Positions 4,310 to 59,168 of a stretch of DNA of 59,385 bases are shown piece after piece. The stretch's first letter is position 1, and each line of letters opens with the position of its first letter. The stretch spans positions 1 to 59,385 of IMG/VR virus record IMGVR_UViG_3300050821_023249; one strand, given 5' to 3'. Below the pieces are notes generated by a model. The model made no database searches. It saw nothing but the letters and a program-made list of their open reading frames with translations, and had not been told where the DNA came from. A program made the translations under genes and the position numbers. Source of the DNA: a virus.

Positions 4310-4794
4310 GAGTCTGTTCCTTTTCCGGCCACCCGTTTACAGGTTTGGCCTTTCGTGATTCCAACTTCTGTCCAACCATCTCGTTTGTAGATTTCTCCAG
4401 TTCGAGGGAGTTCAATTAGTGTCTCGAACCCAACCACTTCGTCTCCATATTTCTTCTGCCAGTCCGTGGCAACCGTTTGACGGAATAGTTCAAGGACCTT
4501 CACAGTGAAGTTTCGAATCGGATATTTTCCGTGCGGTTCGACATGATAGAAAATGTTGTTCACAATGTGAACTAGCATCTGTCTTTTTGTTTCAGGTGTT
4601 ATCCCGAAAAATTTGTCTCGGCCAACCAAATGCAACGTGGCCGAACCGCCAACAATTCCACCATAGTATTGCCCGCCCCACAGCACGGTATAGCAGATGT
4701 TTCGGCCTACGAACCCTTTCGGGTTCGAATAGTGAACCGCCATGTCTGCCAGCAAACGCGGGTCAGTTCTTTTGATTCTTTCTAACCTAAGCAT
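4222..4794 (-). CDS. DruA (DUF4338)-like / Mom-like protein
   Basis: 191 aa from ATG 4794; an upstream extension of the frame is unlikely because it crosses the promoter and the scaffold gene. The pattern is VGR-x2-CY near residue 27, a GG-SA-L segment, RDKFFGI, IVNN, RN, DWQKKYG, FETL, then GEIYKRDGW-EVG-T-G. This order resembles the conserved half of DUF4338 proteins (Druantia DruA). Mom-type adenine-modification proteins of the acetyltransferase fold share some of the same look. Either reading points to DNA metabolism or modification. It is an isolated minus-strand gene between portal and scaffold, with a TATAAT promoter placed so that the mRNA would have almost no leader. It contains one exact copy (4558) and one near copy (4723) of the genome-wide palindrome. 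Confidence 0.5.
   Translation of the reverse strand: MLRLERIKRTDPRLLADMAVHYSNPKGFVGRNICYTVLWGGQYYGGIVGGSATLHLVGRDKFFGITPETKRQMLVHIVNNIFYHVEPHGKYPIRNFTVKVLELFRQTVATDWQKKYGDEVVGFETLIELPRTGEIYKRDGWTEVGITKGQTCKRVAGKGTDSWTGKRVWDTKNLKPKRVFVRIATAIAKK
4558..4572. promoter_or_regulatory. Palindrome site 1, GTTCACAATGTGAAC
   Basis: Exact TTCAC-WWW-GTGAAC, inside the DruA/Mom-like gene, read VHIVN on the minus strand. Confidence 0.75.
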
Positions 4795-4801
4795 CACGAA
4801 A

Positions 4802-4830
4802 ATTATACACCACGCGCCAATTAAGCGCAA
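4802..4830 (-). promoter_or_regulatory. Sigma70-type promoter giving a near-leaderless mRNA
   Basis: Minus-strand TTGCGC (4825-4830), 17 nt, TATAAT (4802-4807). Only 7 nt separate the -10 box from ATG 4794, so transcription should begin at or next to the start codon. Confidence 0.7.
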
Positions 4831-4839
4831 GGAGAAGTT

Positions 4840-5733
4840 ATGACAGAAGTAGCAGAAGCACCAAAGAAGTGGGTAAGGTCTTACCAACCGAAGGACGAAA
4901 ACGGATACCCTATCGGTCCGCCCCAGAAATTTGAAGCGGACACTCAACAGGAATTGATTGACAAGCTCGCTGCCGCGCACGAAAACGCGAGCGCTGCTTT
5001 GTACAAAACCCGCCAGCAAGTGAAGTTAGGCGCGATGCTCGAACCCGACCCGGACGAGCCTCTGCAAACGTTCGAATCGAAAACTCTCACCGCCGAGGAA
5101 CGGCTTAAAATTACTAAGCAACTGGCCGACCCAGCCACTGTGGTTGAAGGCTACAAAAGTTTATCAGAAGCCGTTTATGGAGCACCGCCTGAGAAGGTTC
5201 AGGAATCTCTCCGTGAACGTGAAATCAGTAAGCGCGTAGATTCCATCCGCGCTGCAATCGCCTTATTCGTCAAGGAAAATCCCGCGTACGTAGAGTGCGA
5301 AGGAAACTCCGACAAGATGAAAAAATACATGGAGAAAAATAATCTCCGATACACGGCGAAAAACCTCAAGATTGCTTTCGAAGATTTGTCCAGTGATGGT
5401 TTACTCACTGTGCGAACTCCGCAAGCGGCAGTACCAGTAACACCCGTTGTTACTCCTGTAACGACGAACGCACCCGCTGTGCCTGAGGCGATCCCTCCCG
5501 CACCGACAACTCCGGCCCCGGCGATCCCGGTTGAGCCTACGGAAGTGCGCCCCAAGAACTCGTCCAGCGGATTAGGACGCGAAAATTCCAGCGCAGTACC
5601 TGGAATCACACCACCTAAGACCCCGGGGATTTCTATCAGGGATATTAACAAAATGAGCGCCGCAGAATACCAAGACAAGCTGAAGGATCCTGAGTTCCGG
5701 AAAGCTGTCGAAGCTCTGTACGCCAAGAAATAA
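4840..5733 (+). CDS. Probable capsid scaffolding protein
   Basis: 297 aa lying directly before the major capsid gene, the usual place for a scaffold. The N-terminal half is charged and helical. Residues about 200-245 are a Pro/Ala/Thr/Val-rich linker, and the C-terminus ends with a short helix containing MSAAEY and a basic KK tail, as expected for scaffold-capsid contacts. SD AAGGAG lies 5 nt before ATG. The same MSAAEY segment recurs in the small protein at 8610-8801. No protease motif is visible. Confidence 0.75.
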   Translation: MTEVAEAPKKWVRSYQPKDENGYPIGPPQKFEADTQQELIDKLAAAHENASAALYKTRQQVKLGAMLEPDPDEPLQTFESKTLTAEERLKITKQLADPATVVEGYKSLSEAVYGAPPEKVQESLREREISKRVDSIRAAIALFVKENPAYVECEGNSDKMKKYMEKNNLRYTAKNLKIAFEDLSSDGLLTVRTPQAAVPVTPVVTPVTTNAPAVPEAIPPAPTTPAPAIPVEPTEVRPKNSSSGLGRENSSAVPGITPPKTPGISIRDINKMSAAEYQDKLKDPEFRKAVEALYAKK

Positions 5734-5771
5734 TATCCCGGCACACAAAATAAGTTTGAAGTAGGAATCAC

Positions 5772-6794
5772 ATGGCCGGATACAATCCAGCTAGCAACAC
5801 TACTTCCAACCTGCCTCAGTCTCGCGTTATCTACTACGATAAACGCTTCATTGAGAACCTGAAGGCTCAAACTCCGTTCGTCCGTTGCGCAGAACGGCGC
5901 GAACTTCCGCTCAACAGTGGAAACCAGCTTGAGCTTTTCATGTACAATACGTTCGGTGCAAACACCGCGCAGGTTTCGGAAGGCACGGTGCCCACGGGCA
6001 TCTCCGCTTCGGTCGGGACTACGACCGCCACAATTGGGGAGTACGCAGATTACGCGAACTTCTCTTCTCTTTCACTTGCCACCGCAATCGATCCAGTCGT
6101 CGAAAACGTTGGCCGCGAACTTTCTTACCGCCTTGGACAATCCTTGTCCGCAATTACCCGTGCAGTTGCTGACGGCGCAAACAGCGTCGATAGCTCTGTA
6201 AAGGTCACGATTGCTGGTGGTACGTCACTCGCGCTCGCAAACATCCGCGCTCAGGTCCAGTCTTTGGCTGGCCGCGCGGTTCAACCTTTCAACGAAGCAG
6301 AAGCTCTGATGGCGGGTGTGATCCACCCATTTGCCGTTGGCGACCTTCTGAACGATTCTTCGAATAACTCCGCAATCGACGTTCTCAAGCACACCGTGCC
6401 TGGATTGCAGCGCATGGACGACCTGGTTTCTATCGACTTGGCCGACACACTTGAGTTCCCGGCTTCCGGTGTCGCATTCTTCCAGTCCAACTTGGTTACG
6501 CTGACGACCGCGTATCAGGGTTCGGCGGCTGGGGTGGTGGCATACCGCACGTACATTTTCGGGAAAGACGGGGTCATAGCGATCAGATTAGGTGGTCGCG
6601 GAGATAATGCCATTGAAGATGGCAACTGGAGAAATATTGAGTGCAACATCGTCCAAAACGCTCCATTAAGCGTTGCGGATCCGAGCGGCCTCATCCCGGG
6701 TTGGACTTCGTATCGTGTTCACTACACAGCGAGCCTTCCTCCGGACACAACCATGCGTTTGCGCACGATTGACGCAACGAGTGCCATCTCCTAA
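5772..6794 (+). CDS. Major capsid protein, N4 gp56 family
   Basis: 340 aa, the typical length of N4 gp56-type HK97-fold capsid proteins. The N-terminus has the family-type Y-DKRFIENLK segment, then G-TVPTGI and IGEYADYANFSSLS near residues 75-105 and ITRAVADGANS near 140. SD AGGA precedes ATG by 6 nt. It is followed by an intrinsic terminator, consistent with a need for high expression. The upstream scaffold and portal support the call. Confidence 0.93.
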   Translation: MAGYNPASNTTSNLPQSRVIYYDKRFIENLKAQTPFVRCAERRELPLNSGNQLELFMYNTFGANTAQVSEGTVPTGISASVGTTTATIGEYADYANFSSLSLATAIDPVVENVGRELSYRLGQSLSAITRAVADGANSVDSSVKVTIAGGTSLALANIRAQVQSLAGRAVQPFNEAEALMAGVIHPFAVGDLLNDSSNNSAIDVLKHTVPGLQRMDDLVSIDLADTLEFPASGVAFFQSNLVTLTTAYQGSAAGVVAYRTYIFGKDGVIAIRLGGRGDNAIEDGNWRNIECNIVQNAPLSVADPSGLIPGWTSYRVHYTASLPPDTTMRLRTIDATSAIS

Positions 6795-10581: not shown

Positions 10582-11901
10582 TTCGCCTACGAACGTGCCC
10601 GAGTGGGCACCCGAGCGGCCCAGTGGATTAACCCCAAAAAAGACGAACTACTCATCCCTGACCGGAAAACCGCCTACGCACTAATCGAGAAGTTCGACGT
10701 ACAGTTACAGGCGAAACTGCCGCGGCACAAACGGGCTGAGATTTTGATTGCAAAAAGCATGATATATGAGGCTTTGGGCGATCAAAAGATGATGCAGGCC
10801 GCGGAAGAGGCTTTCAAGGTTACGAAAACCTCCACAACTGCCCACATGATGGCGGTCGCCCATCACCACTTTGGGCGGCTCCAAGAAGCCTGTAATTTTT
10901 ACACCTTAGCGTACCGTTTCCCGCACGAAGAGGGTTTTAACGTCGATCTGGCTTATACACAGGCCCTGCTATTCCAAGGCAGGTGGTCTGAGGCCCACAG
11001 GATGACGCTAGGACTGAAGAAACGGATGGTGTATGCCGCTTACCTGCCAGAATGGGACAGTCGGCCCTGTATGGCGCTCTCAATCGTTTCTGAGGGTGGT
11101 TTTGGGGACATAATTCAGTGCGGGCGGTGGATACCCATAATTCGAGAGATGGTCGCGAACGTAACAGTCTACCTGCCGCCATATTTCTTCGAAACTGGGT
11201 TTGTGGACCTGATGCGGAAGCAAAGTTGGTGCCCAGAGGTCAAACTCCTAACCGACTGTCCGCAGAATGTTCCAGCGGTCGGCTTTTTCGACCTGCCAGC
11301 TATTTTTGATGTCCAGCCAGATAACATTCCGCCTTCCCTCAGTTTCAAGGCGGATCCCATACGGGTAGCGAAATACCGAGATATTCGTAATTCGCGATTC
11401 CCGAATGCCAACCTCCCGACCGTGGGCTTCTGTTTCGCGGCCCGCCAGCAAGAGACTCCTTTAGTGCCGGACGGGACGTACCGAGCCCTCACAGAGCAAC
11501 AGGCGGAAAGAATTCTGGTTGCAGGATTCGAAAAAGTTCGCTTTGTGAACTTGCAAAAAGATTTGAAAATCGACCAGTTCGCAGCACCGCTTATTGCCCG
11601 GCCAGAAATCAATTCTTGGGAAGATACGTGCGCGATTATCGAGAATCTAGATTTTGTGATTTCAGTGGACACCGCGGTTTTTCATCTCGCAGCCGCCATG
11701 GGGAAACCCGTGATTTTGATTTTATCGGGGGCCTCGGATTGGAAATTTGGTCTAAACGATGAGACGTGCCGCTGGTATTCAAACGTACGAATCATTCGCA
11801 ACAATGGATTTGGTTTTGAAAACGCCGTCGAAAAGGTTATTCAGCTAGTCGAAAATGCCCAATTCCACAACCCAACTGTCGAAAATCACGCAATTCGCTA
11901 A
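10576..11901 (+). CDS. TPR-glycosyltransferase (GT9/GT41-like)
   Basis: 441 aa. Residues about 30-150 are helical and TPR-like (A-EAFKVTKTSTTAHMMAVAHHHFGRL-EA). The C-terminal half has a GT-B appearance with SVDTAVFHLAAAMGKPV near residue 362, the sugar-nucleotide binding motif of heptosyltransferase (GT9) and TPR-linked O-linked transferases. It would glycosylate a protein, cell-surface glycan or DNA; the substrate is not visible. AAAGG lies 7 nt before ATG. A near copy of the palindrome is at 11536-11550. Its last 47 nt overlap the start of the tail gene that follows. Confidence 0.8.
   Translation: MQFAYERARVGTRAAQWINPKKDELLIPDRKTAYALIEKFDVQLQAKLPRHKRAEILIAKSMIYEALGDQKMMQAAEEAFKVTKTSTTAHMMAVAHHHFGRLQEACNFYTLAYRFPHEEGFNVDLAYTQALLFQGRWSEAHRMTLGLKKRMVYAAYLPEWDSRPCMALSIVSEGGFGDIIQCGRWIPIIREMVANVTVYLPPYFFETGFVDLMRKQSWCPEVKLLTDCPQNVPAVGFFDLPAIFDVQPDNIPPSLSFKADPIRVAKYRDIRNSRFPNANLPTVGFCFAARQQETPLVPDGTYRALTEQQAERILVAGFEKVRFVNLQKDLKIDQFAAPLIARPEINSWEDTCAIIENLDFVISVDTAVFHLAAAMGKPVILILSGASDWKFGLNDETCRWYSNVRIIRNNGFGFENAVEKVIQLVENAQFHNPTVENHAIR
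11536..11550. promoter_or_regulatory. Near palindrome site, GTTCGCTTTGTGAAC
   Basis: One mismatch, in the glycosyltransferase gene, read VRFVN. Confidence 0.45.
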
Positions 11902-12925: not shown

Positions 12926-13170
12926 TGTTGCATTTCACGATAACAAGCGCACAGGTCACGTACGTCCAGCCGCCGCCCGTGAATTCACAAAGTGAACAGA
13001 TTCCGAACACTACTTTTTTAAATGTTCAGACGGTGAATTCCAGCGAATTGGATAATCCCGGCACGAACCAACCCGCGGTAGCCAGCACTTTTCCGAGGGT
13101 GGCCGATCCCTGGATCGTGAATCCGAACTTAGTCCAAGTGTTCCCAGTGAACAATCCGCCAGCGCCATGA
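12925..13170 (+). CDS. Small Pro/Ser/Thr-rich structural protein 1
   Basis: 81 aa, low complexity (Pro, Asn, Val, Ser, Thr). It begins MLHFTITSAQV, a motif repeated at the starts of the next genes, and contains LDNPG shared with 13349-13819. It starts on the last base of the tail gene stop. One exact palindrome (12983) falls inside it, read as SQSEQ. Probably a minor virion or decoration protein by position. Confidence 0.6.
   Translation: MLHFTITSAQVTYVQPPPVNSQSEQIPNTTFLNVQTVNSSELDNPGTNQPAVASTFPRVADPWIVNPNLVQVFPVNNPPAP
12983..12997. promoter_or_regulatory. Palindrome site 2, ATTCACAAAGTGAAC
   Basis: Exact copy in the small structural gene 12925-13170, read SQSEQ. Confidence 0.75.
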
Positions 13171-14249: not shown

Positions 14250-14278
14250 ATGTTCACATATTGAACAAACTATGTCAA
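14250..14278 (-). promoter_or_regulatory. Promoter with overlapping palindromic operator
   Basis: Minus-strand TTGACA (14273-14278) and GAACAT (14250-14255) are 17 nt apart. The 15-bp GTTCACATATTGAAC (14252-14266) fills the spacer and the -10 box. The same arrangement occurs at 22333-22361, so a repressor binding here would block RNA polymerase. Confidence 0.55.
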
Positions 14279-27930: not shown

Positions 27931-29706
27931 ATGGCCGATCCGAACGATACACCTCAAGCGCAGGATTACTCCGGCGTACAACTCGATATGTCAAAATCCC
28001 AGCCATTGTCTGCGGCTCCTGCGGGCGTAACTTTGGATTTGAGTAAATCAAAACCGCTTCCAGATACAAACCCTGCGGCTCAGCCCGGCGCGATTCAAAC
28101 CCGAAAAGGCGGGCCTGTTCAGAATGTGAACACGATGCCACCACCGACCCGGGAAGACCAAGTGAATCAGGCCCAATCCGCAATCAGTTCCGCTTCTTCC
28201 TTGCCCGGACAAAGCATCGTGGCGGGAGTGGCAAAAGGTGCGTACCAAACAGGAATCGGTGCGAACCAGCTTCTCGCGAAAGCGGAACACGCAGTTGGAA
28301 TTCCTCTCACGGAGGAACAGGAAAGACTTCGCCAAGGCGATGTTTCTCCTTTTACGGAGGCTATGTCTAAAGGTGCCAACGTAGGTGAAAAAGCAGGTGA
28401 AGCAGGCGAAGAACTCGCAGAATGGGCTGCGGGCGACGAGGCTCTAAAAGGTGCGGTAAAAAGCCTCGGCTTAGTTCAGAAAATTGCCCAACACGCTCCG
28501 CATCTAATTGAACTCGCAGAAGACTATCCGAAGGCTACGAAATTTTTAGCTTCTCTTGTAAAAGGCGGCACAGTTGGTGGTGCCGAAGGCGCGGTAAAAA
28601 CAGGGTCTGCCGAAGGCGCGAAAGAAGGCGCGGAGGGTGGTGCAATCGGCGGTGTTGCCGGAGAAATAGTCGGTCCTGTGGTGAAAAAAGTAGCCAAAGC
28701 CGTTGGTTTAGGAAACACAGCCGAAGAAGAAATTATGAAGGCTGCCCAACCGTACAAAAAGAATTTCAAATTTATCGAGGATTGGGGCAAAGCCAAGGAC
28801 CGAATTGTTCAAGAGGTCGAAGAGAACGGTAAGTTCAAAGATATGGGCGAGGCTGCCGACCGAATCGGAGACGTGCGCCGCAAAATCTGGACAGATGAAG
28901 TGATGCCCGCAATCGACCGCCATGCTACGGAAACTTTCGATACCACGAAAGCCGCCGATGCGGTTCGTGCAAAAATCACGCCTGCGCTGCAAAAGAATTT
29001 TCCCGAAGATGCAAAAGTTCTTCAGCAAGTAGCCGACCGATACACCAGTGGAAGTCCGCTTTTTACGGGCGAAAAAACTGTCGGGGATGTAGAAAAAGAA
29101 ATCGAACTCTACAACGCCAAACTTTCGGACAAAGGGTATTGGAAAAAAACGCCTAAAGAACGGGCAATGATGGAAAAAGCTGATCCCCAAATTTCTGCGT
29201 GGCGAACTCTTTCCGATGAACTTCGGAGTTCACTTTATGAACATCTCGAAAAAAATCCTTTGCCGGGCGATCCTTCAAATATTAAGGAACTCAAGGATAC
29301 GTACGGGGCCATCGGAAATGTCGAGAACGAAATCCGCGGACAAGTTAATGTGGCGGGCCGGGCCAGAAATCTTAGCCTAAAACAGATTATCGGTTTGACC
29401 GCGGGCTTCGCGCATGGGGGCCCGGGCGGAATTGCAATCGCGGCATTGCCGATTATCGACAAACTTTACAACGAACCAACCGCTATGCTCAATCGAGCGG
29501 TTTCTAAAGCCGCTCCTGCGGGCCCCGTGAAAAAAGCTGCCCAAGCTGTAGCGGGCGCAGCCAGCAAAGCCCTAGAAAATGCTCCGGCAGCCGCGGGTTC
29601 CGCAATCGTGCGCGTACGAACCAGTGACGGGACTACACGGGAAATAAATTCCGACCAGTTGCCGGAAGCCCAGAAAATTGATCCGGGATTGAAAGTAGTG
29701 CCGTAA
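27931..29706 (+). CDS. Large internal virion protein 2
   Basis: 591 aa. The N-terminus has two copies of a short motif, GVQLDMSKSQPL and GVTLDLSKSKPL, about 15 residues apart. Residues about 90-250 are Gly/Ala/Glu-rich with glycine-zipper-like stretches that could enter a membrane; 260-480 are charged helices; 490-510 (IIGLTAGFAHGGPGGIAIAA) are hydrophobic. Two near copies of the palindrome occur (28117, 29228). An ejection-apparatus component by composition and order. Confidence 0.7.
   Translation: MADPNDTPQAQDYSGVQLDMSKSQPLSAAPAGVTLDLSKSKPLPDTNPAAQPGAIQTRKGGPVQNVNTMPPPTREDQVNQAQSAISSASSLPGQSIVAGVAKGAYQTGIGANQLLAKAEHAVGIPLTEEQERLRQGDVSPFTEAMSKGANVGEKAGEAGEELAEWAAGDEALKGAVKSLGLVQKIAQHAPHLIELAEDYPKATKFLASLVKGGTVGGAEGAVKTGSAEGAKEGAEGGAIGGVAGEIVGPVVKKVAKAVGLGNTAEEEIMKAAQPYKKNFKFIEDWGKAKDRIVQEVEENGKFKDMGEAADRIGDVRRKIWTDEVMPAIDRHATETFDTTKAADAVRAKITPALQKNFPEDAKVLQQVADRYTSGSPLFTGEKTVGDVEKEIELYNAKLSDKGYWKKTPKERAMMEKADPQISAWRTLSDELRSSLYEHLEKNPLPGDPSNIKELKDTYGAIGNVENEIRGQVNVAGRARNLSLKQIIGLTAGFAHGGPGGIAIAALPIIDKLYNEPTAMLNRAVSKAAPAGPVKKAAQAVAGAASKALENAPAAAGSAIVRVRTSDGTTREINSDQLPEAQKIDPGLKVVP
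28117..28131. promoter_or_regulatory. Near palindrome site, GTTCAGAATGTGAAC
   Basis: One mismatch, in internal virion protein 2, read VQNVN. Confidence 0.45.
29228..29242. promoter_or_regulatory. Near palindrome site, GTTCACTTTATGAAC
   Basis: One mismatch, in internal virion protein 2, read SSLYEH. Confidence 0.4.
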
Positions 29707-33812: not shown

Positions 33813-34525
33813 GCGATACAATCACTCAAAAAATTCAAGCGGATTATTCGTGGCTCACTCACCATCTTCTTTTGCTCGGGCTTACGGGTGCGCTCGTACT
33901 GGGTTCGGTTTACGGAGTCGAAGCGCTTCTAGCAAAACACGCCCACGAAGCTGCTTTGGATAAACAAGCCTTCGCTCAAACCCTGCTCCAGCAAAACCAG
34001 CAATTTCAGCAACAGACCCAGGCAACGATAAATTCCCTCGCGCAGCAAAATGCCACGCTCCAAGCCGAAGTCGGTTCGCTCGCAAATGCAATTGCCAGTC
34101 GGGACGCGCAACTCCGAACACAGCAGGCACAAGTTCCCCAACTCACACCCGATCAATTGTCCGTAGAATGGCAGAAAGATATCAAAAACGCGGGCAATAT
34201 AAAACCTTCTACGGGCGGCTATTTAGTGGACCAGCAAGCCGCGATTGCGAGCGTTCAGGCCATCGAAGCTGTTCCTGTGCTCGAACAGGATGTTTCAGAT
34301 TTGCAAAAACAAAACTCCAGCCTGCAAGTTCAGTTTGTGAACGAAGTAGCTATCTACAACGACGAGAAAAAAGCGCACGCTTCGGACAATGCGTCGAATA
34401 CCGCCACAATCTCCGCAAAAGATGCGGAGATTAAAGATATCAAAGCGCAGGCCCGCAAGAGCAAATTAAAATGGTTCGGGCTAGGATTTTTGGCGGGATT
34501 TTTCGCACGGACGGCGGGGTTGTGA
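33809..34525 (+). CDS. Membrane coiled-coil protein with two terminal hydrophobic segments
   Basis: 238 aa. A transmembrane helix at about 18-40 (HHLLLLGLTGALVLGSVYGV), a long Gln/Ala-rich coiled coil at about 45-215, and a C-terminal hydrophobic segment (GLGFLAGFFARTAG). It may span the periplasm or form a membrane-tethered rod. A near copy of the palindrome is at 34328 (one mismatch). A role in lysis or in DNA ejection is possible. Confidence 0.6.
   Translation: MSDTITQKIQADYSWLTHHLLLLGLTGALVLGSVYGVEALLAKHAHEAALDKQAFAQTLLQQNQQFQQQTQATINSLAQQNATLQAEVGSLANAIASRDAQLRTQQAQVPQLTPDQLSVEWQKDIKNAGNIKPSTGGYLVDQQAAIASVQAIEAVPVLEQDVSDLQKQNSSLQVQFVNEVAIYNDEKKAHASDNASNTATISAKDAEIKDIKAQARKSKLKWFGLGFLAGFFARTAGL
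34328..34342. promoter_or_regulatory. Near palindrome site, GTTCAGTTTGTGAAC
   Basis: One mismatch, in the two-anchor coiled-coil gene, read VQFVN. Confidence 0.45.
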
Positions 34526-37433: not shown

Positions 37434-37821
37434 CCCCGCACCGTACAAATTTTGTGAAGCCCACATGAAACCAAGCATCGGCCCCAACCGATGCCATGAA
37501 TGTTTTGGTGCCCAACCAAACCCCACGAACGAACCTGTTCACAAAGTGAACACTACACCTCCAAGCACAAAACTCCAAGAAAACGGAAGTATTGTGCAAC
37601 AAAATGTAGTGCCCGAACCCGCCCTCACCGATCCCACCGCTCAAAAAGTAGTCGAAGCCGCCCAGAATTATGCCCGAGCAATCGAAACCGTAAAAATAAT
37701 CTCCGAACAATTAACAGAAGCCAAGGAACTCGTGGCTGCGCTCGAAAAACAACTCAAAGGAAACCAGGATTTGGCAGATGCCGCGCAAAACGAACTACGG
37801 GAAGCGACGGTGAAAAAATGA
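37426..37821 (+). CDS. Zinc-knuckle and coiled-coil protein
   Basis: 131 aa from ATG 37426. CEAH and CHECFG near residues 10-27 could bind zinc; a Pro/Asn/Thr-rich linker follows and residues about 70-128 form a coiled coil. An exact palindrome at 37537-37551 reads VHKVN. Function unknown. Confidence 0.6.
   Translation: MSNPAPYKFCEAHMKPSIGPNRCHECFGAQPNPTNEPVHKVNTTPPSTKLQENGSIVQQNVVPEPALTDPTAQKVVEAAQNYARAIETVKIISEQLTEAKELVAALEKQLKGNQDLADAAQNELREATVKK
37537..37551. promoter_or_regulatory. Palindrome site 3, GTTCACAAAGTGAAC
   Basis: Exact copy in the zinc-knuckle/coiled-coil gene after recA, read VHKVN. Confidence 0.75.
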
Positions 37822-38606: not shown

Positions 38607-39270
38607 GCCGTCTTTCGAAATTCTGACTCCGTGGGGTTCACTTAATGAACAGGTGGGCGTTCAACTGCTACAGTTCATAGAGCGGATGGCTCGAATTTCG
38701 CACCGTTCGGAAGACAAACAAACTCCCGATTCGTGGAAAAGATTTATACAAGCAGTTGTATTGGAACACGGGGATTGGAGCGTAGTCGAGCACGCCTCGC
38801 TCACCGTAATTTTCAGAGTTGACCGTGGAGTTACGCACGAACTCGTCCGGCACAGACTTTTTTCATTTACACAAGAGAGCACAAGGTTCGTGAATTACGG
38901 AAAATCCGAACTCGAATTCATACAACCTGCCCGAATCGAAGAAGGCGGGCATGTCTATTCCAATATTCCAACATGGGAGCGAGCCGTCGCGGTTTCCGAA
39001 CAAGCCTATCTTGAACTTCTGCGAAACGGAGTGCGCCCTCAGGAAGCCCGCTCAGTTCTACCAAATGCGCTCGCGGCTACCATATCGGTAACTGGAAATC
39101 TCAGATCATGGCGGTGGCTGCTTTTGGCTCGAACAACGAAGGAGACGCATCCAGATTTTAAAAGAGTCACAGTTCCTTTGCTCGCGGAATTTCAGAAAAA
39201 CATCCCGTTACTTTTTGACGACATAGTACCCGAACAAAAACAATCTCAGGCTTTTGCGAGGCCACATTGA
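38593..39270 (+). CDS. thyX: Flavin-dependent thymidylate synthase
   Basis: 225 aa. The ThyX signature is seen as RHRLFSFTQES-TRFVNY near residues 87-103, with LEHGDWSVVEHASLTV near 56 and LPNALAATISVTGNLRSW near 155. It makes dTMP from dUMP using FAD and methylene-tetrahydrofolate. TTG 38593 is the start that keeps the full N-terminus. Lies with other nucleotide genes. Confidence 0.95.
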   Translation: MKIIEPSFEILTPWGSLNEQVGVQLLQFIERMARISHRSEDKQTPDSWKRFIQAVVLEHGDWSVVEHASLTVIFRVDRGVTHELVRHRLFSFTQESTRFVNYGKSELEFIQPARIEEGGHVYSNIPTWERAVAVSEQAYLELLRNGVRPQEARSVLPNALAATISVTGNLRSWRWLLLARTTKETHPDFKRVTVPLLAEFQKNIPLLFDDIVPEQKQSQAFARPH

Positions 39271-42206: not shown

Positions 42207-42622
42207 AGGTTTACCTCGCAGCCGCGTTTTCTCGCCAATCTGAAATTAAGGTTGTGGCAGAAAAATTGCGACAAGCGGGAGTTGAAATCACTTCAAGGTG
42301 GATCGACGCAGAGACGATATACAAAAAACCTACGCGGCTTCGCACCGAAGACGGCTTTCACGACATCCAAGACCTTCGAGCCGCCGACATTCTTGTTCGC
42401 TTCACGGATACGCCTAGCGGCCCAACCGTTCCGTCCCGATTAGTCTCATGCGCCCGTATGTTTGAATTTGGAATGGCATGGGAACGTGGGATGCCAATCT
42501 TCGTGGTTGGCGGAAAACAAAACGTTTTTGATTATCTCCCGAACATTGTTCACTTTGTGAACGAGGAAAGTTTGTTGAGTTATTTTAGAAATTTAGAACC
42601 GTCATTGGACAGAATTCTATGA
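42203..42622 (+). CDS. Nucleoside 2-deoxyribosyltransferase-like protein
   Basis: 139 aa from GTG 42203 (GTGA overlaps the Nudix stop). KVYLAAAFSRQ at the start, an IDA segment, DLRAADILVRFTD near 57 and ARMFEFGMAWERGMPIFVVG near 85 give the fold and catalytic Glu. It is a divergent relative of the split gene at 39267. It would exchange or cleave bases of deoxynucleosides. An exact palindrome at 42548 reads VHFVN. Confidence 0.75.
   Translation: MKVYLAAAFSRQSEIKVVAEKLRQAGVEITSRWIDAETIYKKPTRLRTEDGFHDIQDLRAADILVRFTDTPSGPTVPSRLVSCARMFEFGMAWERGMPIFVVGGKQNVFDYLPNIVHFVNEESLLSYFRNLEPSLDRIL
42548..42562. promoter_or_regulatory. Palindrome site 4, GTTCACTTTGTGAAC
   Basis: Exact copy in the deoxyribosyltransferase-like gene, read VHFVN. 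Confidence 0.75.
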
Positions 42623-45964: not shown

Positions 45965-46221
45965 TAGAATCCGAAAAAGTCTCTGATACGCTCGAAAAAT
46001 GTAGGTTGGATTTGAGGGTCTGAAACGACAGTGGACAGTTGGTTTATCAGGTCCGCCAAAATCGGGAGATTCGCTCGCGCAATTGTCATACTCGCTTTAT
46101 CTCCGTCTGATGTGGTCCACACCGATCCATGTACTCCATCTAAATCCACAAAAACATTTTCCCATCCATGGTCACGAACGCGGATTGTCACTCCGCAGGG
46201 CAATTTCTTAGTCAAATTCAC
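45964..46221 (-). CDS. Hypothetical protein upstream of DNA polymerase
   Basis: 85 aa. GTG 46221 has AAGGAG 7 nt upstream. A beta-rich N-terminus (CGVTIRVRDHGWENVFVDLD) is followed by a helix. Its stop overlaps the polymerase start, so the two are coupled. No family recognised. Confidence 0.65.
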   Translation of the reverse strand: MNLTKKLPCGVTIRVRDHGWENVFVDLDGVHGSVWTTSDGDKASMTIARANLPILADLINQLSTVVSDPQIQPTFFERIRDFFGF

Positions 46222-46381
46222 AGGTTCTCTCCTTGTTCACTATGTGAACAGCGTACGGTTTTGACGCGCACGAAAAACAAGCAGGCTGATATTCCCCTTT
46301 TTCATCCCTGCGTCCGTAGCCCTCTTCTTTGTGGGAGCAGAAATAACAATCTCCGTTTTCGGCGGTCCATTTAGCGGTCAT
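46208..46381 (-). CDS. 57-aa zinc-ribbon protein
   Basis: CYFCSHKEEGYGR and ACFSCASKP form a zinc ribbon. ATGA overlaps the previous stop; its end overlaps the next gene by 14 nt. An exact palindrome (46235-46249) is read as VHIVN. Function unknown. Confidence 0.6.
   Translation of the reverse strand: MTAKWTAENGDCYFCSHKEEGYGRRDEKGEYQPACFSCASKPYAVHIVNKERTCEFD
46235..46249. promoter_or_regulatory. Palindrome site 5, GTTCACTATGTGAAC
   Basis: Exact copy in the minus-strand zinc-ribbon gene, read VHIVN, 14 nt upstream of the start of the next gene. Confidence 0.75.
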
Positions 46382-46714: not shown

Positions 46715-47698
46715 TTGAGCGAAACCGAAATTACATATTCACAAAGTGAACAGGTCAACGAGCTAGTCGCGGCCCTCGCAAAAGCCAAGCTGAAGTATGG
46801 GGAAGTTGTTAAAAGTAAAGAAAATAAATACACAGGGTCCCTATATGCCGATTTGCAGGATTTGATGAATGCCGCCGAACGGCCCCTAGCTGAGGAAGGT
46901 TTGGTAATCGTTCATTTTCCGCTCGAACGCATCGAGCAAAAGAAGGCCGGAGCCCTAACTAAGCTAATTCATGCGTCCGGACAGTTCTTCGGGAATCAGT
47001 TCCTTATGCCCGCTACTGGCAAAGCCTCTGGCGGCGCAGAAAAACTGGATGCCCAAACCGTGACAGGCGGCGTAACTTACGCTAAACGCTGCAATTACGG
47101 TGCTTTAGCCGGATTGGTAGGTGAAGCAGACGATGACGGAAACGCCCTGGCGGACAAATCCGACTCTCGACCCCCAGTTCCGCCGACGAAAGCACCAAAA
47201 GCACCCCCCGTAAACCAAGCGAAAGCTAATACAGGTGGGGATCGCCCGAATTCACATAGTGAACAATCGGCGGTTCCGAAGGCGGTTATTCCTCCGGCAG
47301 AGCCCGTAAAGACCCCCACGCCGCAACCAGCAGCCACGCAGACGAACGATCCCAGTTTTAACGATGTTGTGCCTGTCCAAGCGACTTTTCCCCTAGAATC
47401 GCCTGCCAGCACGTCTCAGCCGGATACAAGCGAAAAACCCACAAAATCTCAACTTGATACGTACACAGCCAAGGTTCGAGACGAAATTCGGCCTGCTCTG
47501 GAACGGGCAGGGTTAAAAGCATCGAAAAATGCCACGGTGGGAGCCAAACTCAAAAATTACCTAGTGTCCGCTTTTGGGACGAACGGGGCCAAGGACCTTA
47601 CGGACTTGACAATTTCGCAGTGGGATGCTTTTATGAATACATACAACACAACCGATTCTGCTTCGTTCGCGGCTTTGGTTGAGGGAGGGAATAAGTGA
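46715..47698 (+). CDS. erf: ERF-type single-strand annealing protein
   Basis: 327 aa. TTG 46715 lies 6 nt after AGGAGG. Residues about 10-150 are the ERF domain (KYTGSLYADLQDLMNAAERPLAEEGL, QTVTGGVTYAKRCNYGALAGLVGEADDDG). A Pro/Ala/Thr linker (150-240) and a C-terminal helical domain follow. It anneals complementary DNA during phage recombination. Two exact palindromes (46737, 47250) occur in its N-terminus and linker, read as SQSEQ and SHSEQ. Confidence 0.92.
   Translation: MSETEITYSQSEQVNELVAALAKAKLKYGEVVKSKENKYTGSLYADLQDLMNAAERPLAEEGLVIVHFPLERIEQKKAGALTKLIHASGQFFGNQFLMPATGKASGGAEKLDAQTVTGGVTYAKRCNYGALAGLVGEADDDGNALADKSDSRPPVPPTKAPKAPPVNQAKANTGGDRPNSHSEQSAVPKAVIPPAEPVKTPTPQPAATQTNDPSFNDVVPVQATFPLESPASTSQPDTSEKPTKSQLDTYTAKVRDEIRPALERAGLKASKNATVGAKLKNYLVSAFGTNGAKDLTDLTISQWDAFMNTYNTTDSASFAALVEGGNK
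46737..46751. promoter_or_regulatory. Palindrome site 6, ATTCACAAAGTGAAC
   Basis: Exact copy near the start of the ERF gene, about 40 nt downstream of its promoter, read SQSEQ. Confidence 0.78.
47250..47264. promoter_or_regulatory. Palindrome site 7, ATTCACATAGTGAAC
   Basis: Exact copy in the linker of the ERF gene, read SHSEQ. Confidence 0.75.
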
Positions 47699-47829: not shown

Positions 47830-48076
47830 GCCGGAGCCAGTTTTTACGCTTCTCCTTGAAGGCGGGGACGATGGGGCTCAACTACTCATCGAAGATGAAG
47901 CCGGAAATCGCGCGGGTCTCATCCAAATAAACGTGGAAGGCGGACTTCTGGATATTCAAAAATCTCTTCATTACGGCAATTTTAAGGGATTTCCTATTCG
48001 GCACATAACATTTTTTCCGAACAGTCAATGTCAAAAAAGTTCTGCATCCGTGATTTACGATAGGGAGGTAAGATGA
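47798..48076 (+). CDS. Hypothetical protein upstream of ssb
   Basis: 92 aa from GTG 47798 (AAGGA 8 nt upstream); ATG 47789 is also possible. Beta-rich, with TLLLEGGDDGAQLLIEDEAG and INVEGGLLDIQ. No family recognised. Its end overlaps the SSB start. Confidence 0.6.
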   Translation: MKLRIKNSPTKPEPVFTLLLEGGDDGAQLLIEDEAGNRAGLIQINVEGGLLDIQKSLHYGNFKGFPIRHITFFPNSQCQKSSASVIYDREVR

Positions 48077-48441
48077 ATTCCGTCGCGCTCATCGGGCGTT
48101 TAGGCCGCGATCCGGAAACCCGCTATACTACGGGCGGAAAAGCCGTCACGAACTTTTCCATAGCCGTGGATTACGGTTTTGGTGACAAAAAAACCACAAG
48201 CTGGATCCCAGTGGTCGCGTGGGAAAAGACCGCCGAGCTTGCGCAACAATATTTAGGCAAGGGTTCGCAAGTCGCGGTCACAGGAAGGTTACAGGAACGT
48301 TCGTGGCAGGATAAAGAAGGAAACAAACGGACAGTTCTGGAAGTGATCGCGATTGGCTTGGATTTTTTGACGAAGGTGGAAAAGAAAAACAGTTCACAAA
48401 GTGAACAGCCGGAAATCCCAGACGAAGATATTCCTTTTTAG
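48073..48441 (+). CDS. ssb: Single-stranded DNA-binding protein
   Basis: 122 aa. A complete OB fold: NSVALIGRLGRDPETRYT, VTNFSIAVDY, WIPVVAWEKTAELAQQYLGKG and VAVTGRLQERSW. It ends with the acidic DEDIPF tip used to recruit partner proteins. An exact palindrome (48392-48406) lies in the linker just before the tip. SD GGGAGG 5 nt before ATG. Confidence 0.95.
   Translation: MNSVALIGRLGRDPETRYTTGGKAVTNFSIAVDYGFGDKKTTSWIPVVAWEKTAELAQQYLGKGSQVAVTGRLQERSWQDKEGNKRTVLEVIAIGLDFLTKVEKKNSSQSEQPEIPDEDIPF
48392..48406. promoter_or_regulatory. Palindrome site 8, GTTCACAAAGTGAAC
   Basis: Exact copy near the end of ssb, read SQSEQ, about 45 nt before the structured intergenic region. Confidence 0.75.
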
Positions 48442-55104: not shown

Positions 55105-55255
55105 AGCCGCAGACTTAGTGGACGGCCACATGGCCCAGCGGCTTTACGATTTGCAACGCGACCCCGTTAGATACCAAGAAATGTGGGCACGTCTAGAAAA
55201 ACAAGCAGAGGAAATAAATGAACGAAGCCATCCAAGTTCTAGCTTCACAAAGTGA
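55085..55255 (+). CDS. Small protein (56 aa) ending in a palindrome
   Basis: Basic and helical (TRRTEAADLVDGHMAQRLYD, RYQEMWARLEKQAEE). AAGGA lies 5 nt before ATG. Its stop codon TGA is part of the exact palindrome at 55243-55257; this is the one frame of the palindrome that must end translation. It overlaps the next gene by 38 nt. Confidence 0.6.
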   Translation: MSTRRTEAADLVDGHMAQRLYDLQRDPVRYQEMWARLEKQAEEINERSHPSSSFTK

Positions 55256-55898
55256 ACAGCTAGTCGCGCATCCAAGCAGTATTTTCGAACAAATCGACTC
55301 GCTCATCCAAAATCTTTTATCCGCAGAATCCCGATTGGACCACGGATACGCGAAACTCGGTCTTCTGCTTACCGAAGTGTCCGAACAGGAACTTTGGCGC
55401 GAAGCTGGATTCGAATGTTTCGATGATTATTTGGTCGAAACCGCCGACAAACACCATCGCGGACGCACAATGCTTTGGCATTATTTTACGGCTGTTCGAG
55501 AAATGAAACCCTATCTCACCGAAGGCCAGATGAACGAAATGGGGATTTCGAAACTCGGGGTGCTCAAAAAAGCCACGAAGGAATTGGGCTTTCCGCCGAA
55601 CCAAGAAGTAATCGATACGGCGCTCGACCCGAAAAAAACTGTTTCGGACGTGCGCAAAGCTGTCGCGCAAAATCATAAATTAACAGAGCCAGAGCAGGAA
55701 GGCAGTTGGTTCGATCTCGGCGGATTTTTCGTGACGAACGAGGAAAAATTAGTAATCAAGGAAGGTTTCGAGGCTAGTTGGAGAACGGATCCCGTAATCC
55801 AAAAGTCCGTGAAGGAAACGGTTCGCACGAAAGAAGGTTTGCTCCGGCTGTGCATGGACTATCTCAGTTCACATAGTGAACAAGGTGAAGCGGCGTGA
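55218..55898 (+). CDS. Helix-turn-helix-like DNA-binding protein
   Basis: 226 aa. Residues about 45-115 have the layout of a phage HTH domain: YAKLGLLLTEVSEQELWREA-GFECFDDYLVETADKHHRGR, then ISKLGVLKKATKELG. A C-terminal helical region follows. Its gene carries exact palindromes at both ends (55243 read SQSEQ, 55867 read SHSEQ). This makes it a candidate for the protein that binds these sites, but that is inference. GAGGAAAT precedes ATG. Confidence 0.65.
   Translation: MNEAIQVLASQSEQLVAHPSSIFEQIDSLIQNLLSAESRLDHGYAKLGLLLTEVSEQELWREAGFECFDDYLVETADKHHRGRTMLWHYFTAVREMKPYLTEGQMNEMGISKLGVLKKATKELGFPPNQEVIDTALDPKKTVSDVRKAVAQNHKLTEPEQEGSWFDLGGFFVTNEEKLVIKEGFEASWRTDPVIQKSVKETVRTKEGLLRLCMDYLSSHSEQGEAA
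55243..55257. promoter_or_regulatory. Palindrome site 9, CTTCACAAAGTGAAC
   Basis: Exact 14-bp core at the start of the HTH-like gene (read SQSEQ); in the other frame its TGA ends the 56-aa gene. Confidence 0.75.
55867..55881. promoter_or_regulatory. Palindrome site 10, GTTCACATAGTGAAC
   Basis: Exact copy at the end of the HTH-like gene, read SHSEQ. Confidence 0.75.
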
Positions 55899-56089
55899 AG
55901 GCCGAAGACAAGTACGAATACGAACTCATCACCGACCGGGTAGCTAAGAAACTAAATATGATGTCCGAATCCCGGTTGGCGGAAAAAGTAAATCAAGCGT
56001 GTCTGACCTCTGGATTCGGGAGAGAAGTTTTGCGACTGAATACGCGGGATGTGAAATTTCTAACAGATTGCGGGGTTAAGGTGGAATGA
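55895..56089 (+). CDS. Hypothetical protein (64 aa)
   Basis: GTG start overlapping the previous stop, AAGG upstream. Charged and helical; no motif recognised. Overlaps the next gene by 4 nt. Confidence 0.58.
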   Translation: MKAEDKYEYELITDRVAKKLNMMSESRLAEKVNQACLTSGFGREVLRLNTRDVKFLTDCGVKVE

Positions 56090-56427
56090 AGTCCAAACAC
56101 TTCCTTATCGAGTTCCCCGCTCTTTCGCACTATGTAGTTCATGTCGAAATCAGTTCGGACATCAAGAAATCCCTATTGAAGTATCCGCCGACGAAAAGTA
56201 TTGAAATGGAAGAAAATACTCATGGATTGGCGGTCCACACGGACAATGCTTTTAGCTACATTTTTCTTCCGTACGACACGTCCGCAGGAGATATCGCGCA
56301 CGAAGCGTGGCATGTGATTCGGCACATGATGGAATATTTAAGTATCGAACTAGACAACGAAGCCGTAGCCTACCATCTTGGTTACATGGTGAACAAAATT
56401 TTCAGGTTTTTGCGTGGGCGGAAATGA
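56086..56427 (+). CDS. Putative HExxH zinc metallopeptidase
   Basis: 113 aa. HEAWH at 72-76 followed by a second acidic position (DNEA near 90-93) is the zinc-binding pattern of small gluzincin-type peptidases. The N-terminal half is a beta domain. Similar short HExxH proteins are known in phages without a known substrate. A different HExxH protein is encoded at 57744. Confidence 0.65.
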   Translation: MKSKHFLIEFPALSHYVVHVEISSDIKKSLLKYPPTKSIEMEENTHGLAVHTDNAFSYIFLPYDTSAGDIAHEAWHVIRHMMEYLSIELDNEAVAYHLGYMVNKIFRFLRGRK

Positions 56428-56774
56428 GCAAAGTCTGGGTCCAACTCGGGGATAACGGCGAGGCTGTTCGGATTTTCAAGAATCAAAAGGAAATGTTTTT
56501 CAGTTGCCCGGTGGATCGCGAAGCCTGTATGGAACGGTCGGTTGCTACGGGACAGATTCGAGCGGCTATCTGGGCCCGGCAGAATGGAATCTGTATTCGA
56601 TGCCCGAATCTGCTAACCAGTGGTGGAATGCACATGCACGAAAAGGCACATCGCGGGCGTGGTGGCGATATTTCCCTCGAAAATTCCGAGGGATTATGTT
56701 ACCAATGCCATCTAGGAGAATTGGGTGTGCATCCAGAGAAACAACTCATGTTCACAAAGCGGAGGGACAAGTGA
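56424..56774 (+). CDS. HNH endonuclease
   Basis: 116 aa. CIRCPNLLTSGG near residue 52, MHMHEKAHRGRGGDIS with the catalytic-type His pair near 68, and GLCYQCHLGELG near 90 form a classical HNH fold with zinc knuckles. ATGA overlaps the previous stop and GTGA links to the next gene. Confidence 0.88.
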   Translation: MSKVWVQLGDNGEAVRIFKNQKEMFFSCPVDREACMERSVATGQIRAAIWARQNGICIRCPNLLTSGGMHMHEKAHRGRGGDISLENSEGLCYQCHLGELGVHPEKQLMFTKRRDK

Positions 56775-57010: not shown

Positions 57011-57013
57011 TTT

Positions 57014-57735: not shown

Positions 57736-57738
57736 GGT
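57710..57738 (+). promoter_or_regulatory. Sigma70-type promoter with near-leaderless output
   Basis: TTGACA (57710-57715), 17 nt, TAGGGT (57733-57738). ATG 57744 follows after 5 nt. Confidence 0.65.
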
Positions 57739-57743
57739 AAGGT

Positions 57744-58247
57744 ATGAGTAGTCAAGAAAAATTCATAATTGCTTATTTGTTCGTGATTCTTATTCTCGTT
57801 GGGTTCGTGGCAGGCTACCAGGCTGGTCACCCAGTGAACAAAAAGTGTGATTGCGGAAACATCTGCTCCACGACGAGTTCACATTGTGAACTAAAAGAGT
57901 GCCCGAAGCACAAAACCGCAGGCGAGCCGCTTTCGAACAAACAACTCCAAGCGTGGTTTGACGGCTTGAACGAAGAATATTTTATGAGCCGCCTGCCCAG
58001 AGCCGCCGTGACGTGGGGCGATCTCACGATTTTGAAAGATATGGGCGTCACGATGCACCCCGAAGGAAATTTCATAATTATTATTGACCGGGACACAAAC
58101 CGAACCAAGTCAACCACGGAAGAAACTATTTCGCACGAAACCTGTCACGTAGCCACATGGGATTTGGAAATGGATGCGCACGGACCAAAATTCCAAGCCT
58201 GTATGGTGAATCTGGCAAACAAAGGTGCGTTCGAGGGGATATGGTAA
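57744..58247 (+). CDS. Membrane-anchored SprT-like metallopeptidase
   Basis: 167 aa. Residues 8-28 are a transmembrane helix; a Cys-rich linker (CDCGNIC ... HCELKEC) follows. From about 65 the SprT-like layout is visible: LNEEYFMSRLPRAAVTWGDL, then HETCH at 131-135 and HGPKFQACM with the third histidine at 146. SprT-type proteins cleave proteins on DNA; here the anchor would place the domain at the membrane. An exact palindrome (57877) lies in the linker. Confidence 0.75.
   Translation: MSSQEKFIIAYLFVILILVGFVAGYQAGHPVNKKCDCGNICSTTSSHCELKECPKHKTAGEPLSNKQLQAWFDGLNEEYFMSRLPRAAVTWGDLTILKDMGVTMHPEGNFIIIIDRDTNRTKSTTEETISHETCHVATWDLEMDAHGPKFQACMVNLANKGAFEGIW
57877..57891. promoter_or_regulatory. 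Palindrome site 11, GTTCACATTGTGAAC
   Basis: Exact copy in the SprT-like gene after its membrane helix, read SHCEL. Confidence 0.75.
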
Positions 58248-58444
58248 ATCCAGACAGTCCATGGAACTGCTACTCTTGGGTCCCAAAAGGCATGGAAAAC
58301 ATACAAGATGAAAACGAGCCGCAAGATTCTGTTCGAGTGTTGCCGACTTTTGATGATGGAAATCCAGGAGCAGAAACACTCCCGGGAAGCGCTGATTCGG
58401 GCGCTAATCAGAGAGGAGGCACAGCCAGTAAAAATACCGACTGA
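58241..58444 (+). CDS. Possible small protein (67 aa)
   Basis: Starts in the overlap with the previous stop. The first 18 residues (VNPDSPWNCYSWVPKG) look coded, but the rest is low complexity and overlaps the next candidate in another frame. Either only the first part is translated or one of the two frames is spurious. Confidence 0.35.
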   Translation: MVNPDSPWNCYSWVPKGMENIQDENEPQDSVRVLPTFDDGNPGAETLPGSADSGANQRGGTASKNTD

Positions 58445-58529
58445 CGATGAAGTGAATGAGCGTATAAATCAGCTTCAGGAGGTGGCTAAAAAGAACTTGA
58501 CAAACCAAAAAGAGGGTAGTAAACTGTAG
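58308..58529 (+). CDS. Small helical protein (73 aa)
   Basis: Charged, strongly helical (EIQEQKHSREALIRALIRE, DDEVNERINQLQEVAKK). No clear SD. It overlaps the frame at 58241 and the promoter at 58497. Function unknown. Confidence 0.5.
   Translation: MKTSRKILFECCRLLMMEIQEQKHSREALIRALIREEAQPVKIPTDDEVNERINQLQEVAKKNLTNQKEGSKL
58497..58525 (+). promoter_or_regulatory. Near-consensus promoter of the transglycosylase gene
   Basis: TTGACA (58497-58502), 17 nt, TAAACT (58520-58525). The resulting leader of about 65 nt contains a strong hairpin. Confidence 0.8.
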
Positions 58530-58548
58530 TAGAAATAGCATCATCACG

Positions 58549-58581
58549 GGGGCTGTTTCGCCGTGGCGGTGGGGCAGCCCC
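58549..58581 (+). promoter_or_regulatory. 5' leader hairpin before the transglycosylase gene
   Basis: GGGGCTG (58549-55) pairs with CAGCCCC (58575-81), and CGCC-GT-GGCG nests inside the loop. No T run follows, so it is not a terminator. GTGGGG/CCCCAC gives an alternative fold that ends 5 nt before the SD AAAGGA. It may control translation or stability. Confidence 0.5.
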
Positions 58582-58595
58582 ACTTCAAAGGAAAA

Positions 58596-59168
58596 ATGAC
58601 CGAAAAAACCAAATCCATTTTTGCTTTCTTCGTCGGCCTGCTTTTGCTGATTTTGATTGCTGCGCTCGGGTCTCCGGCTAGTTCACATAGTGAACCCGCA
58701 CTTAGATTTATGCCCGTGCCTCCGAAACTGGAATATAGCATTTTCCGCACGGGCGGGCTCGAAGTCGCAAAAGTTTTTGGGCGCACGCAAGGCTGCTACG
58801 AGGCGGATGCAGAATTAATCGAAGAAGTGAATTCGGCGGCGACGCGAACGGGACTCGATCCAAAAATAGTGGCCGCAACCGTAGCGGTGGAGTCTGGGTG
58901 TAACCAACTGGCGATTTCCAGCCGAGGGGCTGTAGGGTTAATGCAAATCCGGCCTGCCATTTGGTGCGAAAAGTACGATTGTACGAAAACATACAATTTT
59001 CTGAATCGACACGATAACGTACAAGTCGGTGTTTTCATCCTGTCCGATCTAGTGAACCAGTATGGAATTCAGGAAGGTGTGCGCAGATACCAAGGAATTG
59101 GCCGAGGCTGTGAAACCTGCGATGATTTGTATGCAGAGAAAATTTTGAAGTTAGCGGGGAGGAAGTAA
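58596..59168 (+). CDS. Membrane-anchored lytic transglycosylase (SLT)
   Basis: 190 aa from ATG 58596 (AAAGGA upstream). Residues 7-25 are a signal anchor. The SLT domain begins near 70: the catalytic Glu99 in AVESGCNQLAIS, then SRGAVGLMQIRP and the NVQVGVFILSDLV and RYQGIG blocks. It cleaves peptidoglycan glycan chains. It may be the lysis enzyme (signal-anchor type). An exact palindrome (58681) lies just after the anchor. Confidence 0.88.
   Translation: MTEKTKSIFAFFVGLLLLILIAALGSPASSHSEPALRFMPVPPKLEYSIFRTGGLEVAKVFGRTQGCYEADAELIEEVNSAATRTGLDPKIVAATVAVESGCNQLAISSRGAVGLMQIRPAIWCEKYDCTKTYNFLNRHDNVQVGVFILSDLVNQYGIQEGVRRYQGIGRGCETCDDLYAEKILKLAGRK
58681..58695. promoter_or_regulatory. Palindrome site 12, GTTCACATAGTGAAC
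   Basis: Exact copy in the transglycosylase gene after its membrane anchor, read SHSEP. Confidence 0.75.

Follow-up and report, generated by a model that had tools for sequence, protein, structure and literature searches.

The 59,385-nucleotide stretch of viral DNA considered here (IMG/VR record IMGVR_UViG_3300050821_023249, positions 1 to 59,385; "the window") contains twelve copies of a 15-bp palindrome, and the question these raise is which protein reads them and with what effect on the phage. The reading we favour, with a probability of about 0.55, is that the product of the gene at 55218–55898 binds the palindromes and acts as a multi-site silencer of early transcription. The window is a fragment of a longer contig of a soil phage, IMGVR_UViG_3300021171_000004 (G001; 95,523 bp): three loci of G001 (L005, L038 and L047) match it at 100%, and its start corresponds to G001 position 36,152, with one difference across the 849 bases compared there.

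The palindrome, TTCACWWWGTGAAC, is present at all twelve places named in a first-pass annotation of the window (20 strand matches), where 100 dinucleotide shuffles gave a mean of 0.01 and never more than 1. Every one of the 12 window copies of TTCAC-N3-GTGAA has an all-A/T centre, and the same arms at spacers of 1, 2, 4 and 5 occur in 2, 0, 0 and 0 copies. The consensus proposed in the annotation stands as regards this invariant core and its A/T centre, but not as regards the outer G and C, which are degenerate; the exact GTTCACWWWGTGAAC is found at 8 sites, and one-base variants of it lie at seven more places, where at least six had been claimed. For the site of this clade (clade A), 45 places fall within one mismatch against 3.2 expected. 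The two-armed form is what a dimer would read, as had been supposed. Among at least 117 viral stretches listed with the exact motif, besides the window's own contig only two (L023 and L029) had two copies of TTCAC-N3-GTGAA, which by our own estimate is about chance level for so large a collection.

Across the whole of G001 there are 23 sites, 19 of them in an arc of 37.4 kb that runs across the contig ends and includes the replication genes (P 4e-5, for an arc chosen post hoc). Within the window, ten of the twelve lie in the last 37% (P 0.0015, with the boundary set after the sites were seen), in agreement with the earlier assignment of ten to the early/replication half. Embedding in genes is not borne out as a rule, as 14 of the 23 sites are inside the 96 listed G001 genes and the remaining nine are intergenic or in doubtful open reading frames (ORFs); gene contexts were set from ORFs and orthology, the gene caller having covered 63% of G001. 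Eight sites in window ORFs are read as S[QH]xE, as described before, and three rather than four as VHxVN, the site at 46235 being in no supported gene, with 13 bp between it and the start of the downstream minus-strand ORF 45964–46221. For the ORF around the 4558 site (minus strand, outside the 96-gene list), the one homologue, in G004, is partial (54% over 64 aa). On the main coding strand the centre of the sites is A-rich (A.A 20 vs T.T 5).

Codon resampling of the 96 listed genes (synonymous, pooled usage, 1000 runs) yielded a mean of 0.34 sites and a maximum of 4, against the 14 observed. This null is conservative, because the peptides that it holds fixed are themselves enriched, with nine S[QH][SC]E where 0.37 SQSE plus SHSE are expected and four VHxVN where 0.09 are expected. 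A 94-kb relative, G016, which aligns to G001 across 21 kb in pieces at 63–81% identity, has 19 exact copies of TTCACN3GTGAA, 15 of them with an A/T centre. Twelve of the 19 can be mapped onto G001 (7 cannot), and for five of the twelve the nearest G001 site is no more than 150 bp away (P 0.0016, null mean 0.94), so that positions are partly conserved. Of six shared places, five show a site much better conserved than the flank on either side; at the sixth, which is intergenic, the right flank is conserved too. In the genes that we take from their sequence to encode SSB, 13 of 15 site positions agree between the two phages, compared with 11/30 and 15/30 in the flanks; at the 5' end of the candidate gene the site agrees at 15/15 and the flanks at 8/30 and 6/30. 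The two phages read the site in the gene at G001 4053–4442 in different frames, one as SQSE and the other as HSVN. Because the sites stay while their flanks diverge, the frame has once switched, and codon-resampled genes fall so far short of the observed count, sequence comparison establishes selection on the DNA of the site and not on the protein, as the first-pass annotation had argued; the codon-shuffled count did not refute it, and the comparison of sites with their neighbours at the six shared places points the same way. Exact copies are found in six of 37 records scanned, which were gathered through the capsid protein. Fragments of the same clade (G004, G005, G006 and G021) have 1–4 exact copies each, plus looser ones, and the more distant G002, G010, G026, G028, G036, G037, G011 and Tunturi_3 have none.

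A search of G001 ORFs by blastp picked out just three that have matches in all of G016, G040, G042 and G043 but none in the eight other relatives compared: an ORF of the virion region (61489–61953), the 226-aa product of 55218–55898, and a neighbour which we presume, from its sequence, to be HNH-like. The AlphaFold model of the 226-aa protein has a predicted local distance difference test score (pLDDT) of 67, with residues 21–150 mostly above 80 and dips to 65. In VIA-align the top match to this model is Noc–NBS (Z 7.6, 113 residues, root-mean-square deviation 3.8), and 14 of the top 15 matches are helix-turn-helix (HTH) domains of ParB, Noc, KorB or SopB (Z 7.6–4.7), with one unrelated structure at rank 7 (Z 6.8). 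The model of the G040 homologue, which is 28% identical, gives ParB or Noc at all of ranks 1–10 (Z 8.0–6.6) and unrelated structures from 6.0 down; the two models have three alignment sequences in common. The protein may carry a ParB-type HTH fold, which we treat as a moderate lead from structure prediction and not as a family assignment. The ParB_N CTPase domain (PF02195) was found in none of the seven records searched, with a control positive in 11 of 14 genomes, and the ParA-type ATPase AAA_31 (PF13614, the sole ParA-type family searched) likewise in none of the seven, with a control positive in 14 of 14. Homologues of the candidate were found neither in annotated phages (226-aa and G040 queries) nor in plasmids (G040 query only).

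The relatives that encode homologues have dispersed palindromes of their own. The 110-kb G040, brought in solely for encoding a homologue, contains 56 copies of GTCC-N7-GGAC, most commonly as GTCCATTATTCGGAC, with 63 places within 2 mismatches of that form. Two further homologue-bearing contigs, G042 (L253) and G043 (L254), have 12 and 30 copies; both were found after the pairing had been proposed from the earlier genomes, and the fit is two of two. The arms of the GTCC sites are symmetric and the centre is asymmetric. Palindrome enrichment reaches log10P of -14 to -46 in the five homologue genomes and -3 to -8 in eight comparison genomes, one of which (G006) is a clade-A fragment; none of 46 unrelated contigs (8 kb or longer), drawn from a scan for one clade-A motif, goes beyond -6.7. 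Two types of homologue each co-occur with a motif of their own. The candidate's own gene carries a site in all five genomes (product of window fractions 5e-4), although in the GTCC clade this site codes for a conserved peptide and is weaker evidence there. These homologues and the predicted fold in two models strengthen the earlier nomination of the 55218–55898 product as a DNA-binding candidate.

A profile built from the five homologues retrieved a remote homologue in G002 (E 1.2e-5). The G002 motif, TTCTA-N5-TAGAA, has 5 exact copies and 15 places (two overlapping) within one mismatch where 0.9–1.3 are expected, and it was already the strongest palindrome among relatives without clade-A sites before the homologue was found. 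With G002 added, the profile retrieved Tunturi_3 ORF gp71 (55680–56444; E 2.8e-8). The description of G002 and Tunturi_3 as lacking the homologue (0 of 8, by blastp) is accordingly withdrawn, and the other six of the eight relatives are records of 40–70 kb, in which absence proves little. Judged from these motifs, there is strong pairing of homologue and site in two clades and suggestive pairing in a third (G002), and none was seen in a fourth (Tunturi_3). We think it fairly probable that Tunturi_3-kind podophages share a family of ParB-fold proteins devoid of the CTPase domain, each with its own approximately 12–60 dispersed 15-bp sites, and that this system silences or organises the genome as a whole, in three or more co-diverged specificities (GTTCAC-N3-GTGAAC, GTCC-N7-GGAC and TTCTA-N5-TAGAA).

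The asymmetric centre of the GTCC sites allows their orientation to be scored. In G040 and G043 together, one strand relation to nearby conserved genes holds at 55 of 69 scored sites (55 vs 14), with 17 of 86 sites unscored, and at 24 of 31 intergenic sites (24 vs 7); a cruder gene set gives 43 of 63 in G040. GTCC sites are also concentrated near gene starts, with 16 of 98 between -15 and 30 bp upstream of the start of a conserved ORF, where random placement gives a mean of 3.1 and a maximum of 10.

In the mechanism that we propose, the palindromes would be operators of the phage-encoded 55218–55898 product, by predicted fold a ParB/Noc/KorB-like HTH protein without the ParB CTPase domain, and a dimer would read the half-sites GTTCAC and GTGAAC across the 3-bp A/T centre. 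With about two dozen sites, mainly in the early/replication arc, it could act on many early genes at once, including its own; most likely it would silence early transcription from many sites or act as a roadblock to it, with a logic like that of stoperators and of KorB-OB. Multi-site silencing is favoured over partition, with moderate confidence, because of the strand bias, the gene-start enrichment, the site in the candidate's own gene, and the searches in which neither ParB_N nor the ParA-type AAA_31 was found.

Several observations weigh against this proposal. The likeness to ParB is by predicted fold only, with Foldseek E-values against PDB above 0.5 for both models, a pLDDT of 67, and Z scores no higher than 8.0, which VIA-align warns may reflect a common arrangement; in BFVD, phage proteins that are uncharacterised come first and second (E 0.016 and 0.024), ahead of ParB-named entries at 0.2 and worse. 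Sequence profiles of Pfam and of PDB sequences gave no ParB match for the candidate family, and in PHROGs all five homologues weakly match a family of unknown function (best 0.0016), with one ParB-like match at 0.25. The genomes are related, with G040, G042 and G043 forming one clade and G040 having about 20 proteins in common with G001, so that the co-occurrences amount to few independent events and not five. Tunturi_3 has a remote homologue and no convincing motif was seen there, and none of the 15 G002 motif places is in the gene of its homologue. The orientation in G042 is opposite in trend, at 3 of 10 (7 same, 3 opposite), and no promoter pattern or spacing is fixed relative to the sites. 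Nor is a lysogeny repressor established, as the Tunturi isolates described in PMC11924767 showed lytic cycles, with recombinase or integrase genes reported there for Tunturi 3–5; an integrase-family protein is encoded in five of seven records (G001, G016, G040, G002 and Tunturi_3). The best palindrome of Tunturi_3, AAGCT-N5-AGCTT, was judged to be chance (11 vs 4 expected).

The alternative that survives best, conceivable though doubtful, is that the same protein is a Noc- or SopB-like organiser or partition factor which compacts, anchors or segregates the phage genome or its replication products without direct control of transcription. The ParB/Noc/SopB fold of the predicted models would suit this role, as would the dispersal of the sites, reported also for the NBS sites of Noc (PMC7383237), and the position of the candidate gene near the primase gene in G001, G040, G042 and G043; that only some sites are common to G001 and G016 suggests that they may act in aggregate. 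The strand bias in two of the three GTCC phages and the enrichment at gene starts are unexpected for a pure organiser, however, and the searches of seven records in which neither a ParB_N domain nor a ParA-type ATPase (AAA_31) was found weaken the ParA-dependent form of the partition option raised in the first-pass annotation, its general form keeping the low standing just given.

It is unlikely that the sites belong to some other protein, such as the HNH-like neighbour (in nicking or recombination), the tyrosine recombinase, or a regulator of the host, for example LexA. The HNH-like gene has the same pattern of presence by blastp as the ParB-like gene, and SPbeta offers a precedent for a repressor of recombinase fold with repeated 15-bp sites (MrpR and SPBRE, as presented in PMC10516654). 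Yet members of the recombinase family are also present in G002 and Tunturi_3, phages with no clade-A sites, and the family was not found in the GTCC-bearing fragments G042 and G043; a host regulator leaves unexplained why the motif goes with a phage protein, and a nuclease cutting its own genome at 23 targets seems implausible.

Very improbable, in our view, is that the palindromes act as stem-loops in early transcripts recognised by an RNA-binding protein. The full palindrome would form a perfect 6-bp stem with a 3-nt loop, and the A-rich centre on the main coding strand fits; among 19 one-mismatch variants (G001 and G016, outer G and C kept), however, pairing is preserved through G-U in 4 and lost in 15, close to the 1 in 6 expected by chance. 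Of the 9 transitions among them, 4 preserve pairing and 5 lose it. The test is weak, as the near-sites may be decayed. A small mobile palindromic element settling in tolerant protein linkers with no regulatory role, to which the many in-gene sites near gene ends or in linker-like stretches might point, is the least credible of all, as the copies have only the site and a weak flanking preference in common, one-mismatch copies are frequent, diverged genomes have sites at matching positions, and the motif letters differ between clades.

The silencer reading can be compared with known dispersed-site systems. Cluster A mycobacteriophages are described as having up to 30 dispersed 13-bp stoperators per genome, with motifs similar but not identical between phages and one predominant orientation relative to transcription (PMC6550527); the sites are asymmetric and bound by a monomeric two-domain repressor, according to PMC9283540. 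The resemblance noted in the first-pass annotation has gained from the present data, with tens of dispersed near-identical sites (23 and 19 TTCAC-N3-GTGAA; 56, 12 and 30 GTCC-N7-GGAC), a motif that varies with the protein, and an orientation bias in two of the three GTCC phages (55 vs 14 in G040 and G043). On orientation the picture is mixed, G042 standing at 3 vs 7 and the palindromic clade-A sites showing a mild centre bias (20 vs 5). Clade-A sites differ in being palindromic and often intragenic, and the candidate in its ParB-like predicted fold. On plasmid RK2 the palindromic OB sites number about a dozen and are dispersed. Its KorB is reported as a DNA-binding protein of the ParB type, with sites close to promoters or distant from them that are used in silencing, and as a CTP-binding clamp that acts with KorA (PMC11790492). 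No ParB_N domain was found here, and the KorB-operator structure is the 12th match to the 226-aa model (Z 5.9) and is absent from the 50 matches shown for the G040 model.

For parS and NBS, the sequences given in PMC7383237 are TGTTTCAC-GTGAAACA and TATTTCCC-GGGAAATA respectively, with NBS widely spread on the chromosome. ParB and Noc are the best-ranked folds for the candidate, and TTCAC/GTGAA arms recur in the phage sites; in contrast, the phage arms are 3 bp apart, there is no ParB_N domain, and no family match was obtained at the sequence level, apart from one weak PHROG match. The SPBRE of SPbeta, like the present site a 15-bp repeated phage element, is bound by one phage master repressor, MrpR, which has a tyrosine-recombinase fold, and is described at intergenic regions (PMC10516654), whereas 14 of 23 sites here are in listed genes.

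Of the titles and abstract openings listed in searches of an open-access collection of papers, none describes such a system. To our knowledge, dispersed multi-site control is known in few phage groups, which use other protein folds. If the proposal is right, DNA binding of the partition type would be connected with the control of phage genes through a ParB-fold protein and its dozens of sites, some of them intragenic; the lineage-specific motifs would supply natural protein–site pairs for studying the evolution of specificity, and there would be a regulatory handle on phages whose hosts are probably Acidobacteriota.

Table 1. Palindromic sites, the candidate binder and its neighbour in the window.
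Feature	Coordinates	Strand	Context
Site GTTCACAATGTGAAC	4558..4572		In minus-strand ORF 4222-5019 (VHIVN)
Site ATTCACAAAGTGAAC	12983..12997		In ORF 12925-13170 (SQSEQ)
Site GTTCACAAAGTGAAC	37537..37551		In ORF 37378-37821 (VHKVN)
Site GTTCACTTTGTGAAC	42548..42562		In ORF 42146-42622 (VHFVN)
Site GTTCACTATGTGAAC	46235..46249		Intergenic, between DNA polymerase/45964-46221 block (-) and Erf/SSB block (+); G016 site in matching gap
Site ATTCACAAAGTGAAC	46737..46751		About codon 8 of Erf-like gene 46715-47698
Site ATTCACATAGTGAAC	47250..47264		Within Erf-like gene (SHSEQ); site at matching place in G016 orthologue
Site GTTCACAAAGTGAAC	48392..48406		Near 3' end of presumed SSB-like gene 48073-48441; 13 core bases same in G016 orthologue
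Site CTTCACAAAGTGAAC	55243..55257		5' end of ParB-like gene; 15/15 identical in G016
Site GTTCACATAGTGAAC	55867..55881		3' end of ParB-like gene
Site GTTCACATTGTGAAC	57877..57891		In ORF 57744-58247 (SHCE)
Site GTTCACATAGTGAAC	58681..58695		In ORF 58563-59168 (SHSEP)
One-mismatch site GTTCACAAACTGAAC	3144..3158		
One-mismatch site GTTCGCTTTGTGAAC	11536..11550		
One-mismatch site GTTCACATATTGAAC	14252..14266		
One-mismatch site GTTCAGAATGTGAAC	28117..28131		
One-mismatch site GTTCACTTTATGAAC	29228..29242		
One-mismatch site GTTCAGTTTGTGAAC	34328..34342		
One-mismatch site GTTCACTTAATGAAC	38636..38650		
226-aa protein, candidate binder	55218..55898	+	Predicted fold with ParB/Noc/KorB-like HTH domain (residues 18-156, approximately)
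Presumed HNH-like protein	56307..56774	+	Close downstream of candidate binder; present alongside it in 5/5 strongly site-bearing genomes (blastp)

Window positions 59271–59385 and positions 1–115 of L008, the start of G001, are the same repeat at 94% identity, and the repeats resemble pentapeptide-repeat coding. The likeness of the repeats at the two contig ends points to, without proving, a circular G001 map broken there. A near-identity DNA search of the phage collection with window segments 1–25000 and 25001–50000 gave no match; single-protein queries gave three loci for the polymerase, one for the primase, two for the 226-aa protein and one for the recombinase.

By capsid protein the nearest named phage is Tunturi_3 of Tunturiibacter (64.7%), and from this likeness an Acidobacteriota host for the G001 phage is likely. 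A scan of bacterial genomes returned one contig with a related capsid gene, from a metagenome-assembled genome labelled Bacteroidetes, which has 177 places within one mismatch of TTCACN3GTGAA against 125 for a reversed control pattern, a small excess. The capsid protein itself (window 5772–6794) is 96–97% identical in phages such as G006 and G016, the other DNA of which aligns at about 63–81%. The capsid gene match in L154 10001–11523, L168, L170, L173 and L175 is several hundred bases longer than the residues require, as if interrupted, and an Rfam search of these five loci gave no family at threshold.

A tRNA-Asn gene adjoins a short tyrosine recombinase gene in both G001 (L178 10993–12091) and G016 (L199 15299–15969), a pair that is a possible attachment site; the recombinase motif is HSLKH in the G001 protein and HAIRH in that of G016. 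Searched against Rfam, the window and L178 gave tRNA as the sole match. About 175 non-coding bases, directly 3' of a shared site, are kept between G001 (L178 7962–8135, outside the window) and G016 (L199 19576–19755, minus strand). This stretch has no Rfam match (in L178), single-strand z values of -2.7 and -4.5 (for slightly shorter stretches) and a predicted common fold in which, from two sequences only, 7 of 34 pairs are changed on both sides, and it is possibly a structured phage RNA.

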